This document shows, one piece after another, positions 1,573-12,588 of a DNA stretch of 23,648 nucleotides (its first letter is position 1; each line of letters begins with the position of its first letter). Made by a program: the position numbers and the translations under genes. The notes under the pieces are model-generated. The model saw only the letters and a list, made by a program, of their open reading frames with translations. It was not told the DNA's origin and ran no database searches. Origin of the DNA: a virus; the IMG/VR virus record IMGVR_UViG_3300025645_000456, positions 1-23,648 of that record; one strand, 5' to 3'.

Positions 1573-1675
1573 AAGTCCCTGCAAAGGAATTTGTGTGTTG
1601 GACAAGGAACGAGTTAAGTGTATCGGGTGTGGACGAACCATCGAAGAGATAACTAACTGGGGTAAAACCAAATGA
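1553..1675 (+). CDS. DUF1289 four-cysteine mini-protein
   Basis: 40 codons from GTG 1553 to TGA 1673-1675. The residues run SPCKGICVLDKERVKCIGCG then RTIEEITNWG. The cysteines sit at 10, 14, 23 and 26 (C-x3-C-x8-C-x2-C), followed by the G-R-T-x-x-E-I-x-x-W signature of DUF1289 (SPC-x-G-x-C, C-x-G-C-G-R-T). Bacterial DUF1289 proteins are small and probably bind a metal or Fe-S centre; their function is unknown. The gene overlaps the membrane protein by 20 nt and the lysozyme start by 4 nt (ATGA), so it looks translationally coupled inside the lysis cassette. The GTG start is the only reasonable one, with AGG five bases upstream. The intact motif argues strongly that it is a real gene. Confidence 0.8.
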   Translation: MTPKESKSPCKGICVLDKERVKCIGCGRTIEEITNWGKTK

Positions 1676-2157
1676 AATACAGAACAGAACATTTCCTAGA
1701 TAAGTTAATTCACCATGAGGGTATGGTGCTTACTGTATATGAAGACAGTTTGGGCATCGAAACTATAGGAATAGGTAGGAACCTCAAGGACAGGGGTATC
1801 ACCAAAGAAGAGCTAGACTACATGGACATCCCTAACATGGATGTAGTCTACGAACACGGTATTACCGAAGCCGACGCTCGTTACCTTGCCATGAACGACA
1901 TACGCATTGTTGAAAACGAATTGTGTCGAGTACATCCTTGCGTCGAAGACTTAGATAGTGTAAGACAGTTGATACTAATGGACATGGCGTTTAATATGGG
2001 GGTTCCCAGATTGTGTAAGTTTAAGAACATGTGGGGTGCAATTTACGATGGTAACTACGAGATAGCATCTATAGAAATGATGGATTCCAGATGGGCAAAG
2101 CAAGTGGGTTCGAGGGCCGTTAAACTTTCGGATGCGATGAAAGCGGGGGAGTTTTAG
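1672..2157 (+). CDS. Endolysin, T4-type lysozyme (GH24)
   Basis: 161 residues, the usual size for a phage GH24 muramidase, which cuts the MurNAc-GlcNAc bond of peptidoglycan. The N-terminus carries HHEGMVLTVYEDSLGIETIG, with catalytic Glu16, Asp25 and Thr31 at exactly the E-x8-D-x5-T spacing of T4 lysozyme. The helical lobe includes LILMDMAFNMG, the family's N-M-G substrate-cleft region, and MDSRWAKQVGSRA near the end, the usual W-x-x-Q-x-x-x-R-A. There is no signal peptide or signal anchor, so export depends on the holin. The start is in an ATGA overlap with the DUF1289 gene. Confidence 0.93.
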   Translation: MKYRTEHFLDKLIHHEGMVLTVYEDSLGIETIGIGRNLKDRGITKEELDYMDIPNMDVVYEHGITEADARYLAMNDIRIVENELCRVHPCVEDLDSVRQLILMDMAFNMGVPRLCKFKNMWGAIYDGNYEIASIEMMDSRWAKQVGSRAVKLSDAMKAGEF

Positions 2158-2383: not shown

Positions 2384-3457
2384 ATGCCACCTCGTAATCA
2401 CAGGGATTGGGTCAAGACTCCCAAAGTAGAACACATCAGTTCGTTGATTTATTCTAGTCACGACATCTACAAACAGGAACAAGAAAACATCTTTTCCAAA
2501 GTTTGGGTTCCCTGTTTTCACAAGAGCGAGTTACCGAACGAGTTAGATTTTCGAACAGGGCAGATAGCAGGACAGAACATCCTTGCTTACAACACAGGCA
2601 CAGAAATCAGAGCCTATCGTAACTACGACATAGTGCAGCCATCTGGTACGTTTGCTGCTCAAGTGGTTACTTCTGAACCACGATTACATTGTGAAGTGAA
2701 ACATGGCGGCATGGTCTGGATTACCCTAGACCCGAACCCTACCATGTCAGTAGAGGAGTGGACCTGTGGTGCTTTTGATTGTATTGAGGATGCTATCGAC
2801 ACTGAAGAAATGGAAGTTTTTCACTATCACAAGGCAGTAATAGATACAAACTACAAGCTGTGGCACGATACCAACAGCGAGTTTTACCACGATTTCATGC
2901 ACTACTTTAATCGTGTGTCAGGTTTTAACGATGAATACTTTGCTAGAAAGAACATACCATTCGATAACGGACATGTTAATGTTAGCAGCTTCACCGTTAA
3001 CTACGAAGAATACGATGGCTTTGAGGATAGAGGAGAGCTTAGTTTCCCTAACTTGCCACCCAATCAATGGTACATGGTTGACCTGTTCCCCGGATTTAAT
3101 TTTAATCTTCGCGGTAGTGCTTATCGAAGCGACAGCGTTACACCTCTTGGGCCAAACAAAGTTCTTATTGAGTTTCGCGGGTATGGTCTTAAAAAGGATA
3201 CCCCAGAGGAACGGCAGACTCGTATTAAGCATCACAACTCTATTTGGGGTCCATTTGGGCGTAACCTGCACGAAGACCTTATCGGCGTAGCAGGTCAGGG
3301 TACAACAATGCGCGAGGGAACCGAACCCCGTAACATCTTACACGGGCGGCACGAGAACAGCACCATCCACGACGAAGTTGGTATGCGCCACTATTACGCA
3401 GAGTGGAGCAAATGGATGGGCTTGGATGCAAGTAAGTCTTGGCAATTAGCGGCGTAG
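2384..3457 (+). CDS. Rieske oxygenase alpha-subunit-like protein lacking the Rieske cluster
   Basis: 357 residues. The N-terminal part matches ring-hydroxylating oxygenase alpha subunits: NIFSKVWVPCFHKSELP (about 35-51) and IRAYRN (75-80). Asn80 falls where the family has N-x-C-x-H-R-G, but YDIVQ follows, and the later C-P-Y-H-G-W pair is absent. Only about 25 residues separate Asn80 from the post-Rieske strand GGMVWITLDPN, against about 70 normally. The catalytic domain is well kept: NYKLWHDTNSEFYHDFMH with Glu166, His169 and His173 as bridge and iron ligands, LFPGFNFNLRG, IWGPFGRNL, and ED-297/298 supplying the acidic ligand. The closest relatives I can think of are methanesulfonate monooxygenase MsmA and similar alpha subunits. 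Chemistry without the cluster is unknown. The gene is in frame and intact and abuts its neighbours, so decay is unlikely. Confidence 0.8.
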   Translation: MPPRNHRDWVKTPKVEHISSLIYSSHDIYKQEQENIFSKVWVPCFHKSELPNELDFRTGQIAGQNILAYNTGTEIRAYRNYDIVQPSGTFAAQVVTSEPRLHCEVKHGGMVWITLDPNPTMSVEEWTCGAFDCIEDAIDTEEMEVFHYHKAVIDTNYKLWHDTNSEFYHDFMHYFNRVSGFNDEYFARKNIPFDNGHVNVSSFTVNYEEYDGFEDRGELSFPNLPPNQWYMVDLFPGFNFNLRGSAYRSDSVTPLGPNKVLIEFRGYGLKKDTPEERQTRIKHHNSIWGPFGRNLHEDLIGVAGQGTTMREGTEPRNILHGRHENSTIHDEVGMRHYYAEWSKWMGLDASKSWQLAA

Positions 3458-3618: not shown

Positions 3619-3820
3619 GACAGAAAAGCCTGTAGCCGTTAGCATCACTGAGAACAGTTTTGAACTGATATTGAGAATACTGGGCAACGAGTTCATTGCC
3701 ATCCGCATAGGGTCAACGAACTTTAGTGGTAAGCTTATAGCAGGTAGTATCCTGTTACTTTTCTTTACGTTTATGCTATTAGAAGTGTTTGGTTTATCTA
3801 GGATACTGGGCATTGAGTGA
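3611..3820 (+). CDS. Small single-pass membrane protein
   Basis: 69 residues from ATG 3611. A longer reading from ATG 3575 exists, but it would overlap the upstream short gene by 44 nt and adds residues with no obvious role. The first 40 residues are polar and include FELILRILGNEFIAIRIG. Residues 41-62 form one membrane helix (KLIAGSILLLFFTFMLLEVF). The short tail ends at TGA, overlapping ATG 3820 by one base. The topology suggests a cytoplasmic N-terminal domain anchored at its C-terminus, or the reverse. There is no family match that I know. Confidence 0.62.
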   Translation: MTETEKPVAVSITENSFELILRILGNEFIAIRIGSTNFSGKLIAGSILLLFFTFMLLEVFGLSRILGIE

Positions 3821-4218
3821 TGGCTACAAAGATAAGTGAGAATACAGAAGTTGCGTTACCCTTGCGTAACATAATTAGCATGGTGGCTGCTGCATCTGTG
3901 GCAACGTGGGCATACTTTGGTATTATCGAACGCTTGAATCAATTAGAAACTAACATCACTATGATGAAGTCTGACTTGGAACAGAACACAGAGTTTCGTA
4001 TTAAGTGGCCTCGTGGTGAAATGGGTAGTCTTCCAGCAGACAGCGAACAGTTCATGCTCATTGAACACATAGCTAGTGAACTAGAAAAACTACAGAACGA
4101 AATAGAAGACGGCAAAGCACCCTACGACCAACAGCAAAAATTAACGCTAGAGTTTTACGAAAAGCGTATCACGAACTTAGAAGATAACATAGAGAAGCTA
4201 AGAAACGGCGATGATTGA
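3820..4218 (+). CDS. Membrane-anchored coiled-coil protein
   Basis: 132 residues from ATG 3820 (TGATG junction). A GTG at 3817 would add one residue. One membrane helix lies at about 17-36 (RNIISMVAAASVATWAYFGI). A coiled-coil stretch follows (IIERLNQLETNITMMKSDLE), then the segment FRIKWPRGEMGSLPADSEQF and a second long charged coiled coil to the end. I recall the central R-I-K-W-P-R-G-E-M-G segment from hypothetical proteins of marine phages. The layout is like a signal-anchored periplasmic protein and, near a lysis cassette, could suit an inner-membrane spanin, but no outer-membrane partner with a lipobox is visible. The function is unknown. Confidence 0.68.
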   Translation: MATKISENTEVALPLRNIISMVAAASVATWAYFGIIERLNQLETNITMMKSDLEQNTEFRIKWPRGEMGSLPADSEQFMLIEHIASELEKLQNEIEDGKAPYDQQQKLTLEFYEKRITNLEDNIEKLRNGDD

Positions 4219-4426
4219 ACTTACTTTTGTATTGCTGTTAACTATGGGCAGTGAAAAGGTAGAGTACACCCCGTATGAATCTTTATCTCAGTGTTTATCG
4301 GTGCGGCGTAAGATAAAACGGAACACAGGCGTAACTCATAACTTTGACCAGAAGTGGTCCTGCAAAGAACTTAAAGTTAAAATAGATGAAGACACTGGCA
4401 GCATTTTAGAAATCGTAGAAGAATGA
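4211..4426 (+). CDS. Small protein, short hydrophobic N-terminus and Cys pair
   Basis: 71 residues. The start overlaps the upstream gene by 8 nt and the stop overlaps the next start by 4 nt (ATGA). The N-terminus MIELTFVLLLTMG is hydrophobic, possibly a short signal or membrane insert. Two cysteines follow, at 28 (YESLSQCLSVRRKI) and 51 (WSCKELKV). The pattern of hydrophobic start, helix with Cys, basic stretch, then Cys near a strand is shared with the next gene and partly with the gene at 3460. A disulfide-stabilised periplasmic mini-protein is a reasonable inference, not shown. Confidence 0.6.
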   Translation: MIELTFVLLLTMGSEKVEYTPYESLSQCLSVRRKIKRNTGVTHNFDQKWSCKELKVKIDEDTGSILEIVEE

Positions 4427-4602
4427 TTGTGTTTGTGCTGTACGTGTACTTAGGTGCAAATATAATAGACCGCACACAACAGTTCGTAGACATGGATAGA
4501 TGCCTATACTTTGCTCAGAGATTGTCGCGACAACAAGCTGTTCCGGCGGGTGGCGGTAAAAGAAAAAAGATAACCGCAGTATGTAGACCCCAACCAAAGT
4601 AG
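4423..4602 (+). CDS. Small protein, hydrophobic N-terminus and Cys pair (second copy of pattern)
   Basis: 59 codons from ATG 4423 (in ATGA with the upstream gene) to TAG 4600-4602. The N-terminus MIVFVLYVYLG is hydrophobic. Then QFVDMDRCLYFAQRLSRQQ carries Cys27, and KITAVCRPQPK carries Cys54. The architecture mirrors the 71-residue protein before it, including the MI start, and suggests distant paralogues or convergent exported mini-proteins. The next gene starts 13 nt downstream, and its ribosome site AGGAACC overlaps this stop codon. The function is unknown. Confidence 0.6.
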   Translation: MIVFVLYVYLGANIIDRTQQFVDMDRCLYFAQRLSRQQAVPAGGGKRKKITAVCRPQPK

Positions 4603-4615
4603 GAACCAACCAACC

Positions 4616-5110
4616 ATGATTGCAGAAACACTCGCGGGTATAGCCCTTGTAAAGAGTGCCGTAGATGGTATCAAATCTGCAATAGGAACCGCCAACGACA
4701 TTGGAGACATAGCAGGTTACATAGATAATCTGTTCGAAGGCGAAAAGCAGGTACAGCAAGTCCGTAACAAAAAAGCGGGTAACGTAAGTATTGGGGACCA
4801 GTTTGGCGTAGATACTGTTGCTCGTGATGTAATTGATGCACGTATCGCTGCAGAAAAACTCCAAGAAGTAGCTACGATGGTTGACATGCGGTTTGGTCCG
4901 GGAACTTGGAAGGGTATAGTCATTGAACGAGCTAATCGTATCAAGGCTGCAAAGGAAGCTGCAGCAGCAGCCCGAAGAGCAGAAAGGCTAAGACAAGAAG
5001 AAATGATGGAGAACATCAAGGTAGTGGCTCTGATAGTAATGGTTTTTGCAATCGGTATTGGACTCCTGATAGCGTTGATGGTTTCTACTGCATCTGCCTT
5101 CATTAATTAA
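4616..5110 (+). CDS. Membrane protein with amphipathic coiled middle
   Basis: 164 residues from ATG 4616, eight bases after AGGAACC. The N-terminus (MIAETLAGIALVKSAVDGIK) is a hydrophobic or amphipathic helix. Residues 54-65 include NVSIGDQFGVD. Residues 90-102 hold DMRFGPGTWKGIV. A Lys/Ala/Glu/Arg-rich coiled helix runs at about 105-133, and a clear C-terminal membrane helix at about 136-157 (VALIVMVFAIGIGLLIALMV). I recall this type as a widespread uncharacterised protein in marine phages. It is the last gene before a strong promoter, so it may end a transcription unit, but no terminator hairpin is seen. Confidence 0.72.
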   Translation: MIAETLAGIALVKSAVDGIKSAIGTANDIGDIAGYIDNLFEGEKQVQQVRNKKAGNVSIGDQFGVDTVARDVIDARIAAEKLQEVATMVDMRFGPGTWKGIVIERANRIKAAKEAAAAARRAERLRQEEMMENIKVVALIVMVFAIGIGLLIALMVSTASAFIN

Positions 5111-9999: not shown

Positions 10000-12588
10000 A
10001 TGGGTCAGGGCTATACAAGGAATGACACCTCTAACAACATAGCAGACGGAAACGTTATCAACGCCTCTGATTTGGACGGCGAGTTTAACGCGGTAGATGC
10101 TGCTTTTAACGAATCTTCGGGACACACTCACGACGGCACGGCTGACGAGGGTGCGCCTGTTACTGTCTTGGGTCCGGTGCAAGACTTTGTTGCAAGTGCC
10201 ACAGAGATTAAACCGAAAACCTCAAATACCCTAGACATTGGCACGGCCTCTCTGCAGTTCAAGGATATGTATTTGGATGGAACCGCTTACATAGATGGCT
10301 TGGGCGAGGACATCCTAGTTGCAACAGATAAGAAGGTGCAGTTCCGCGACACTGCTCTGTTTATAAATTCTAGCACGGACGGTCAACTTGATATTGCTGC
10401 GGATACAGAGGTAGAAATAACAACTGCCCTCGTGGAAATATCCGCTGATGCAACTGTTGGGGATGACCTAACACTAAAGTCTGATGCTGCCGTTCTTGGA
10501 TTTGGGGCAGACACAGATGTAACTCTGACTCACGTTGCTGACACCGGGTTGTTACTTAATGCAGCAATGGTAGTTCAATTCCGCGACTCAGCAATTAACA
10601 TTGGCTCACCTGCTGATGGTGACTTGGATATCAACGCAGATGACGAGATTGAACTCAACTCAACCCTGATTGATATTAATGGTAACTTAGATGTTAGTGG
10701 AACAATCGTAGGTGCAAGCACTCTTTCTGCAACAACAGGAACATTTAGTGGTATTCTAAAAACTGATGATGCGACTGAGGCAACAAGCACAACGGATGGT
10801 TCACTTCAAACTGACGGTGGTTTGTCTGTTGTTAAAGACGCTGTATTCGGTGATGATATTAAATTGTTGTCAGATAGTGCAGTAATTCATTTTGGTGCAG
10901 ATAGTGATATTACATTAACCCATGCGGCTGATACTTCTCTTGCTACAAATGGAGTAATGATTGCAACAACCTTTGAACCTACTGGTGACACAGCAGCCGG
11001 TGACAATGCAGCCATTGGGTATACCGCTGCTGAAGGTCTGATTCTGACAGGGCAAGGTTCTACATCAGACATCACGTTGAAGAACGATGCTGATGCTACA
11101 GTGTTCACTGTGCCTACTGGTACGGATGATATCCTGTTCCCAGACAATGCCAAAGCTATGTTCGGTGCTGGGTCTGATTTGCAGATTTACCACGATGGGT
11201 CGAATAGCTATATTGTAGATACTGGAACTGGTGGTCTTTTCCAAAAAGCTAATGCTGAATGGGCCGTACAATCACAAGGCACAGATGAGTATTTTATTCA
11301 GGCGGCATCTAACTCCTTTGTGAAGCTGTTTTTCAACGGCTCTGAAAAACTCGCCACCACCAACACAGGCGTGGATGTCACTGGCACACTTGTTTCTGAT
11401 GGATTGACAGTATCGGGTGATGCTGTATTTGAACCAGACAACGATGGTGTTCGCATTACTGGTACAAACTACGCAACATTGCGTTTGGAAGAAAATGACA
11501 CGACAGATTTAAACACGACAATGTTTAATTCTGCTGGCAAGTTTTCAATCTCTACTAGCAGCGATAACAGAGCATCTGCGACAGAACGAGTAACTCTTAA
11601 CCATTCAACTGGCAACTTAAATCTTCTATCGGACAGTGTGGGGATTGGTGCAGCCAATGACCAAGCTGTTGTTGCCGCTGCCGAACCTCTTGTTGTTACG
11701 GCTGATGGAAGTTCTGTTGGCACAAATGAAGTGGCGCATTTTGCGTATCCGCAAACATCAGGCAATCTCTTTGGCATGAGGCTAAGACAGGTTGTAACTT
11801 CTGGCGTGGTTAATCACACCTTTGCTACATATAATAATGGAACAGAGTATGCAAGCAACCTTGTTTTAGAGGGAGGCCAAGTCGCCATTGGTACAAGTTC
11901 ACCGGCATTTCAACTTGATGTTAGAGGGAATGTAGCGTCTAATTATCTTGCCTACTTCATTAACGATGGAAATAACTCAAATCGCTATGGGGTTTTAGTT
12001 CAAGCTGGTGCAGATAGCGGTGACGGAACTCTTATTGGTTTTAATGACGGTGATGGAACAGGCGTAGGTGGAATTACATTTTCTGGTGGCACAGTTACCT
12101 ATGGCGCATTTACTGCACAGCACCCTTGTATTATTCCTGACGCAGATAATGACCCAGATAGTGATTTACCTGCGTACCCATATGGAACACTGTTAGAAAC
12201 TACTAGCCTTTCATACATTCCAAAAAGTGATGGCACTGACAGTGAAAGGGGCATTAGATACCATGTGCGTAAAACCCAGACTGCCAATAGTAAAGCGGTT
12301 TTAGGTGCTTATGGTTGTTCTATGAATGGTGGACCAGAAAATCAAACCAACGAACATCAAGCTTTAGTTCTTGGTGATGGTCACATTCTTTGTAACAACA
12401 GTGGCGGCAATATAGAAATGGGTGATGGTATTTGTTCATCTGCCGCCGCTGGTATAGGCCAGAAAGCAACAGCTAATCCATCCATGATTATTGGTATCGC
12501 CCAAGAAGCAGTAACTTTTTCTAGTGACACCGAAACTAAATTAGTGGCTGTCCAATATGGTCTACAGCAGTTTATTCCGTGGAGTTAG
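10000..12588 (+). CDS. Tail fibre (receptor-binding) protein
   Basis: 862 residues with a strong AAGGAAGGA ribosome site at 9984-9992. The N-terminus GYTRNDTSNNIADGNVINAS and the SSGHTHDGT segment are typical of marine phage fibre attachment domains. The shaft consists of repeated strands (VQFRD...ADGDLDI; GADTDVTLTHVADT; LQIYHDGSNSYI). The last 160 residues form a distinct end domain: AFTAQHPCIIP, NEHQALVLGDGHILCNN, MGDGICSSAAAGIGQK, MIIGIAQEAVTF, and a final VQYGLQQFIPW. That end pattern recurs in marine phage fibres as I recall and may be a tip or maturation domain. It lies directly after the tail hub. No DGR-type reverse transcriptase is in the window. Confidence 0.85.
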   Translation: MGQGYTRNDTSNNIADGNVINASDLDGEFNAVDAAFNESSGHTHDGTADEGAPVTVLGPVQDFVASATEIKPKTSNTLDIGTASLQFKDMYLDGTAYIDGLGEDILVATDKKVQFRDTALFINSSTDGQLDIAADTEVEITTALVEISADATVGDDLTLKSDAAVLGFGADTDVTLTHVADTGLLLNAAMVVQFRDSAINIGSPADGDLDINADDEIELNSTLIDINGNLDVSGTIVGASTLSATTGTFSGILKTDDATEATSTTDGSLQTDGGLSVVKDAVFGDDIKLLSDSAVIHFGADSDITLTHAADTSLATNGVMIATTFEPTGDTAAGDNAAIGYTAAEGLILTGQGSTSDITLKNDADATVFTVPTGTDDILFPDNAKAMFGAGSDLQIYHDGSNSYIVDTGTGGLFQKANAEWAVQSQGTDEYFIQAASNSFVKLFFNGSEKLATTNTGVDVTGTLVSDGLTVSGDAVFEPDNDGVRITGTNYATLRLEENDTTDLNTTMFNSAGKFSISTSSDNRASATERVTLNHSTGNLNLLSDSVGIGAANDQAVVAAAEPLVVTADGSSVGTNEVAHFAYPQTSGNLFGMRLRQVVTSGVVNHTFATYNNGTEYASNLVLEGGQVAIGTSSPAFQLDVRGNVASNYLAYFINDGNNSNRYGVLVQAGADSGDGTLIGFNDGDGTGVGGITFSGGTVTYGAFTAQHPCIIPDADNDPDSDLPAYPYGTLLETTSLSYIPKSDGTDSERGIRYHVRKTQTANSKAVLGAYGCSMNGGPENQTNEHQALVLGDGHILCNNSGGNIEMGDGICSSAAAGIGQKATANPSMIIGIAQEAVTFSSDTETKLVAVQYGLQQFIPWS
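10336..10959 (+). repeat. Shaft repeats within the tail fibre
   Basis: Two kinds of module are repeated. Type A (VQFRD...(T/A)DG-x-LDI-x-AD) lies at about 10336-10443 and 10573-10680. Type B (SD-(A/S)-AV-x-x-FGAD-(T/S)-D-(V/I)-TLTH-x-AD) lies at about 10474-10569 and 10864-10959. Type B copies also share some wording at DNA level. They read as beta-helical or triple-beta shaft units. Confidence 0.7.

Follow-up and report, generated by a model that had tools for sequence, protein, structure and literature searches.

Our analysis of a 23,648 nt stretch of viral DNA (hereafter, the window) suggests that the ORF at positions 2384-3457 probably encodes the catalytic half of a split MsmA-type Rieske monooxygenase, which would be fed electrons by a Rieske/reductase chain of the host. 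At the sequence level, this reading draws on both halves of the enzyme, their reciprocal losses, their co-occurrence in genomes, their operon context and the strong purifying selection that acts on the catalytic domain.

By its sequence, the ORF encodes a Rieske oxygenase alpha subunit, nearest to MsmA, in which the predicted iron site is kept and the Rieske ligands are gone (Table 1). The frame has no internal stop, and two further independent contigs (L003 and L004) encode a product identical over all 357 amino acids, which excludes a sequencing error or frameshift as the origin of the Rieske loss, an explanation that a previous sequence-only reading of this gene had considered. Pfam recognized no Rieske domain in the product; its sole match, over residues 141-346, was the catalytic domain PF00848 (E = 1e-7). 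In a phmmer comparison with the PDB, relatives aligned over residues 18-80 of the N-terminal frame and ended at Asn80, the very residue up to which the sequence-only reading had matched this frame to the Rieske domain of oxygenases; phmmer was informative for the N-terminal frame only, and Pfam and Foldseek served to locate the catalytic domain. An AF2 model of the protein (pLDDT 86.5, pTM 0.88) has an alpha-subunit fold according to Foldseek, with terephthalate dioxygenase as the top match (E = 5e-21) and a further match to the carnitine monooxygenase CntA (E = 1e-18). Among annotated phage genes, the nearest comes from the Puniceispirillum phage HMO-2011, where it is labelled "methanesulfonate monooxygenase alpha"; the two products are 73.9% identical.

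Table 1. Features of the oxygenase gene and its surroundings in the window (residue numbers refer to the 357 amino acid product).
Feature	Position	Strand	Basis
Rieske-less MsmA-like oxygenase alpha subunit (probable catalytic half)	2384..3457	+	357 aa plus stop; open frame, PF00848, HMO-2011 homology, AF2 model
Catalytic (mononuclear iron) domain	2774..3418 (residues 131-345)	+	Alignment; nearly invariant
Stripped Rieske-domain remnant without cluster loops	2513..2695 (residues 44-104)	+	0/149 Rieske ligands; fast-evolving, swapped among phages
Glu166, corresponding by motif to the bridging glutamate of CntA (E205)	2879..2881	+	Invariant; correspondence from motif, not superposed structure
His169, predicted iron ligand	2888..2890	+	149/149 phage, 17/17 cellular-collection Rieske-less, 62/62 intact MsmA
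His173, predicted iron ligand	2900..2902	+	149/149 phage, 17/17 cellular-collection Rieske-less, 62/62 intact MsmA
Glu297-Asp298 (H-E-D motif), Asp298 being the predicted third iron ligand	3272..3277	+	149/149, 17/17, 62/62 (same three groups)
Phage lysozyme/endolysin, upstream of the oxygenase gene, late-region context	1672..2157	+	phrog_7 endolysin, E = 3.5e-13

Alignment with intact MsmA showed that N80-Y-D-I-V-Q stands where N-V-C-P-H-R-G is expected, and that the phage protein has 47 residues fewer in the segment up to L-[RH]-C-E-V, in agreement with the replaced N-x-C-x-H-R-G and the missing second-pair segment that had been described from the letters. The MsmA-defining CXH-X26-CXXH motif is thus absent from the phage protein, whose homology to MsmA is clear in the catalytic domain (72% identity). 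Among viral-collection relatives, which were seeded from the window protein and HMO-2011 only and are about 73-100% identical, all four Rieske ligands (C-x-H ... C-x2-H) are missing in 149/149 and E166, H169, H173 and D298 are kept in 149/149 (151/151 for both counts when two phage-like contigs are included). Within this sample, the deletion is therefore common to all phage homologues, the HMO-2011 copy among them, and the four catalytic residues that the sequence-only reading had listed as kept are all present. The same reading had named C44/H46 and C103/H107 as a conceivable alternative cluster. This candidate fails, as C44 is variable (present in 34/83) and H46 and Cys103 have counterparts among the ordinary residues of intact MsmA, held in PVCHESEL and RLRCEVKFGG beside all four true Rieske ligands.

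One scan of species-representative genomes identified 17 Rieske-less loci (proteins of ~360 amino acids, 74-79% identical to the phage protein) and 63 intact-type MsmA loci, mostly of ~410-430 amino acids, one of them cut by a contig end, with best-segment identities to the phage protein of 49-59% for nearly all. Two of the 17 Rieske-less loci (L083 and L098) resemble phage contigs binned in MAGs, and the rest are from SAR116 or related alphaproteobacteria. A prophage origin of the cellular copies was rejected for SAR116, where the msm operon lies on long contigs and in one case in a chromosome of 2,753,527 bp. In most cellular loci, a divergent msmEFGH-like ABC transporter is followed by a large fusion gene, MsmB, MsmC (a separate Rieske ferredoxin), a ~280 amino acid protein and the Rieske-less alpha gene, which is the last gene of the msm operon. 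This order is not universal: in SAR116, a distance of 9-13 kb sometimes separates the fusion gene from the Rieske-less one, which speaks against the split-enzyme reading. Neighbors of the SAR116 operon include genes for a TauE sulfite exporter, ketopantoate hydroxymethyltransferase, formate-THF ligase, FolD and molybdopterin oxidoreductases; the TauE and one-carbon genes fit with the release of sulfite and one-carbon units. The ~280 amino acid protein (L084 7656-8495 and relatives) is conserved, with no Pfam match and no convincing PDB match. We considered an NdmE-like role peculiar to the split system, which is left unsupported by these searches and by the presence of the gene near some intact msm loci as well.

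The fusion encoded in the cellular msm operons (~800-857 amino acids) consists of an intact Rieske domain (PF00355) that keeps the long MsmA-type spacer, a decayed alpha catalytic domain, and a FAD reductase (PF07992 and PF14759). Its predicted structure (pLDDT 59) was too poor for use. The distribution of ligands between the two chains is reciprocal: fusions have the Rieske ligands in 12/12 cases and the iron motif in 0/12, the Rieske-less chains of cells and phages have the Rieske ligands in 0/166 and the iron site in 166/166, and intact MsmA has both (62/62 each, with an X at one Rieske ligand in one sequence). Likewise, the motif NYKLWHDTNxEFYHDxxHY, found in 61/62 intact MsmA proteins, and HED, found in 62/62, are both present in all Rieske-less chains and in 0/12 fusions. 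Identities to intact MsmA over the Rieske and catalytic parts (0.71 and 0.28 for the fusion, 0.23 and 0.72 for phage chains, 0.22 and 0.72 for cellular Rieske-less chains) point to mirror-image damage. The fusion of a Magnetovibrio MAG (L097) has its catalytic segment in register with the ligands replaced (NYKENHDDLIKFRQNITNK), and by its sequence looks like an intermediate state. One SAR116 genome (G004, loci L087 and L277) has two copies of the split system, and in another (G007, locus L278) the fusion is present as two frames with an internal TGA.

The two genes also occur together. The fusion was found in 10/10 tested genomes with the Rieske-less gene, and in 61 genomes of one SAR116 family both genes are present in the same 12 and neither in the other 49 (Fisher's exact p = 6e-13, a value that overstates independence because the genomes are related); in one of these 12 the fusion is split over contig ends and in another it is broken by a stop. 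No intact MsmA was found in the 12 two-gene genomes, one of which is the genome with the single 2,753,527-bp chromosome. When the whole order (136 genomes) is considered, an intact MsmA is present in a single additional genome, together with a classical msmABCD set and a different, free reductase. MsmA-sized frames (~414-482 amino acids) were found in nine of 297 genomes sampled from the order to which the Magnetovibrio MAG belongs, and the fusion in the MAG itself alone.

The Rieske loss as such was known before: the CXH-Xn-CXXH motif is missing from MsmA of HMO-2011 and from many MsmA sequences of ocean viromes and metagenomes, as well as from one of the pair of MsmA-annotated proteins in the HMO-2011 host, Candidatus Puniceispirillum marinum IMCC1322, in a study that defines MsmA by the CXH-X26-CXXH Rieske motif (Henriques and De Marco, 2015; PMC4433239). 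The HMO-2011 protein (ADW08429) and the second MsmA-annotated IMCC1322 protein belong to the same Rieske-less family as the window protein. The words "fusion" and "fused" were not found in the text of PMC4433239, which, as searched here, makes no mention of a lost iron site or a joined reductase in the other, Rieske-bearing IMCC1322 protein. Phage MsmA has been said in a review to act in methanesulfonate oxidation, and published SAR116 genome searches treat MsmA as a single gene. We found no description of a Rieske/reductase partner in the literature searched, to which the first description of HMO-2011 (Kang et al., 2013) did not belong; the missing partner is what is new here.

Within a single Rieske oxygenase chain, the distance from the Rieske center to the iron is too great (44 Å in CntA); electrons instead reach the neighboring subunit over ~12 Å via a bridging carboxylate, which in CntA is E205, mutants of which are inactive (PMC7948474). 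Since Rieske oxygenases transfer electrons between subunits, two half-dead chains can form one working enzyme. The bridging glutamate is invariant in phage, cellular and intact sequences. To our knowledge, its sole use is contact with the Rieske domain of a neighboring chain, and its retention as Glu166 argues for an alpha-type partner. The sequence-only reading had listed pairing with an intact host alpha subunit among its possibilities. A host partner of alpha type indeed appears likely, but probably not an intact one: in SAR116, the Rieske-less chain is always found with an iron-dead fusion, and the likely partner is thus a reciprocally damaged chain. Contrary to what had been expected, removal of the cluster need not stop catalysis.

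We infer that in SAR116 a duplicated alpha subunit gave rise to two complementary chains, one that has kept the Rieske cluster, lost the iron site and become joined to a FAD reductase, and another that has kept the iron site and lost the Rieske loops. In the putative complex, two kinds of chain would have to fit into a head-to-tail trimer, a point against the model; electrons would pass from NADH to the fused FAD reductase, perhaps to the ferredoxin MsmC, then to the fused Rieske center and through Glu166, the presumed crossing point over the subunit interface, to the iron. During infection, the phage iron chain may insert into the electron chain of the host, provided by a partner that the window's own host would also encode. 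The most likely result, and the putative benefit to the phage, would be more oxidation of methanesulfonate, the substrate suggested by gene context, to formaldehyde (one-carbon units) and sulfite.

Other accounts of the phage protein have to be weighed against the split enzyme. Direct feeding of an active oxygenase by MsmC, another host ferredoxin or peroxide, bypassing the fusion, is compatible with the presence of a separate Rieske ferredoxin in the operon and with an iron site that is invariant and under purifying selection. It is unlikely, given that, among the cellular genomes checked, those with the Rieske-less gene always had the fusion too, and that the phage chain keeps a glutamate whose known role is contact with the Rieske domain of a neighboring alpha subunit. 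We consider it quite improbable that the protein is a helper or decoy that enters the host complex and thereby blocks or diverts methanesulfonate oxidation: it could assemble with the host fusion via the conserved interface, and its N-terminal remnant diversifies fast, but a decoy need not keep the iron ligands and bridging glutamate that are invariant in 149 sequences, and its catalytic domain averages 92% identity to that of the host.

The location of the gene in the late region beside lysozyme and tail genes, and the failure to find partner genes in the phages, could also be taken to mean that the protein is no longer an enzyme and that the oxygenase fold has been reused for a small-molecule-binding or structural phage protein. 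The invariance of the iron site, a pN/pS of 0.08 and the near-identical cellular gene within the msm operon make this very improbable. Use of peroxide or binding of a small molecule by the phage chain, both raised in the sequence-only reading, are not needed to account for the data.

In the phages, the catalytic domain is under strong purifying selection (pN/pS 0.08, from a pN of 0.063 and a saturated pS of ~0.80), whereas the Rieske remnant at residues 44-104 evolves about six times faster (pN/pS 0.48). Comparison of the window with contig L060 (2058-3137) showed an identity of 0.38 over residues 44-104 and of 0.98 over residues 105-345, both flanks of the remnant being 93-98% identical. Residues 44-104 are exchanged as a module among phages: of 2149 pairs that share >97% identity in the catalytic domain, 1426 fall below 60% in the remnant, and more than a dozen remnant types exist. 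The remnant is well packed in the AF2 model (pLDDT ~97 over residues 31-80). We tentatively raise the possibility that it is a docking module fitting the diverged dead catalytic domain of the host chain, each phage suiting its own host lineage.

The gene is very common, with at least 599 confirmed relatives in IMG/VR, and it has the features of an auxiliary metabolic gene: it is phage-borne, under purifying selection and has a close host homolog, the SAR116 Rieske-less catalytic domain (mean identity 92%). An endolysin family is encoded within six genes of it in 97/152 phage loci. The fusion, MsmB, MsmC, MsmD and the ~280 amino acid gene are absent from the phage loci examined, msmB, msmC and msmD being present around the cellular Rieske-less gene, and no phage with its own Rieske half was found among the viral contigs scanned with the alpha part of the fusion (one query sequence). 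A tail protein and the ribonucleotide reductase encoded in the window indicate proximity to phages of the HMO-2011 type; of the phage-collection records of this type, that of the SAR116 phage includes the gene, and those of Roseobacter and Pelagibacter phages lack it. In the phylogeny, a fully supported branch (100/100) separates intact and Rieske-less chains, indicating that the Rieske-less form arose once in this sample. The tree sets the host genes among the phage genes, and a single phage clade was not rejected (AU p = 0.161).

Compared with classical MsmA of the msmABCD system, the phage protein is homologous over its full length outside the deleted loops and keeps all catalytic residues, and its cellular counterparts are located in msm operons; unlike MsmA, it lacks CXH-X26-CXXH and would require a partner for electrons, and the SAR116 reductase is of the BphA4-like FAD type and fused to the Rieske chain, whereas the classical system has a free MsmD. 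CntA and terephthalate dioxygenase, the best fold matches, differ in having both redox centers on one chain in a homo-oligomer; the similarity to CntA would extend to intersubunit transfer via the bridging glutamate. The closest architectural parallel is the NdmC/NdmD/NdmE N7-demethylase of Pseudomonas putida CBB5, in which NdmC is an iron chain without a Rieske center and the reductase NdmD carries it (PMC4408171). The SAR116 pair similarly comprises an iron chain without Rieske and a Rieske domain on a reductase fusion, the phage bringing the iron chain only. The likeness drawn here is one of architecture, and there are differences: the SAR116 Rieske chain retains a decayed alpha catalytic domain, the reductase type differs, no GST-like (NdmE) partner was recognized in the SAR116 operon, and the iron chain is phage-borne.

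The reciprocal decay of two alpha subunits into a split Rieske enzyme, in an abundant clade of marine bacteria, would explain in concrete terms how a phage oxygenase without a Rieske cluster can function. The long-repeated claim that phage MsmA influences the marine sulfur cycle becomes testable with a defined protein pair, ocean-survey msmA counts may include half-enzymes, and phage genes annotated as metabolic can rely wholly on a host partner.

Some individual loci deserve mention. The split msm operon of the 2.75-Mb SAR116 chromosome is interrupted by a three-gene cluster for a molybdopterin oxidoreductase (L276 10911-15501), possibly SoeABC (a sulfite dehydrogenase) or DmsABC. Bins labelled Planktomarina (L092) and Marinovum (L096) hold SAR116-type split msm genes and are probably contaminated, because the catalytic domain of L092 is identical to that of the SAR116 single cell L099. 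The contig L098 (PALK01000009.1), binned as "Rickettsiales", has the Rieske-less gene at 10001-11089 and looks like a phage of another lineage, encoding class I RNR large and small chains, ClpS and HSP20. On the apparent phage contig L083 (CAJQGR010000004.1), the next gene downstream of the Rieske-less gene (3793-4773) encodes an SbmA/BacA-like peptide transporter (PF05992, E = 7e-130), which is unusual for a phage.
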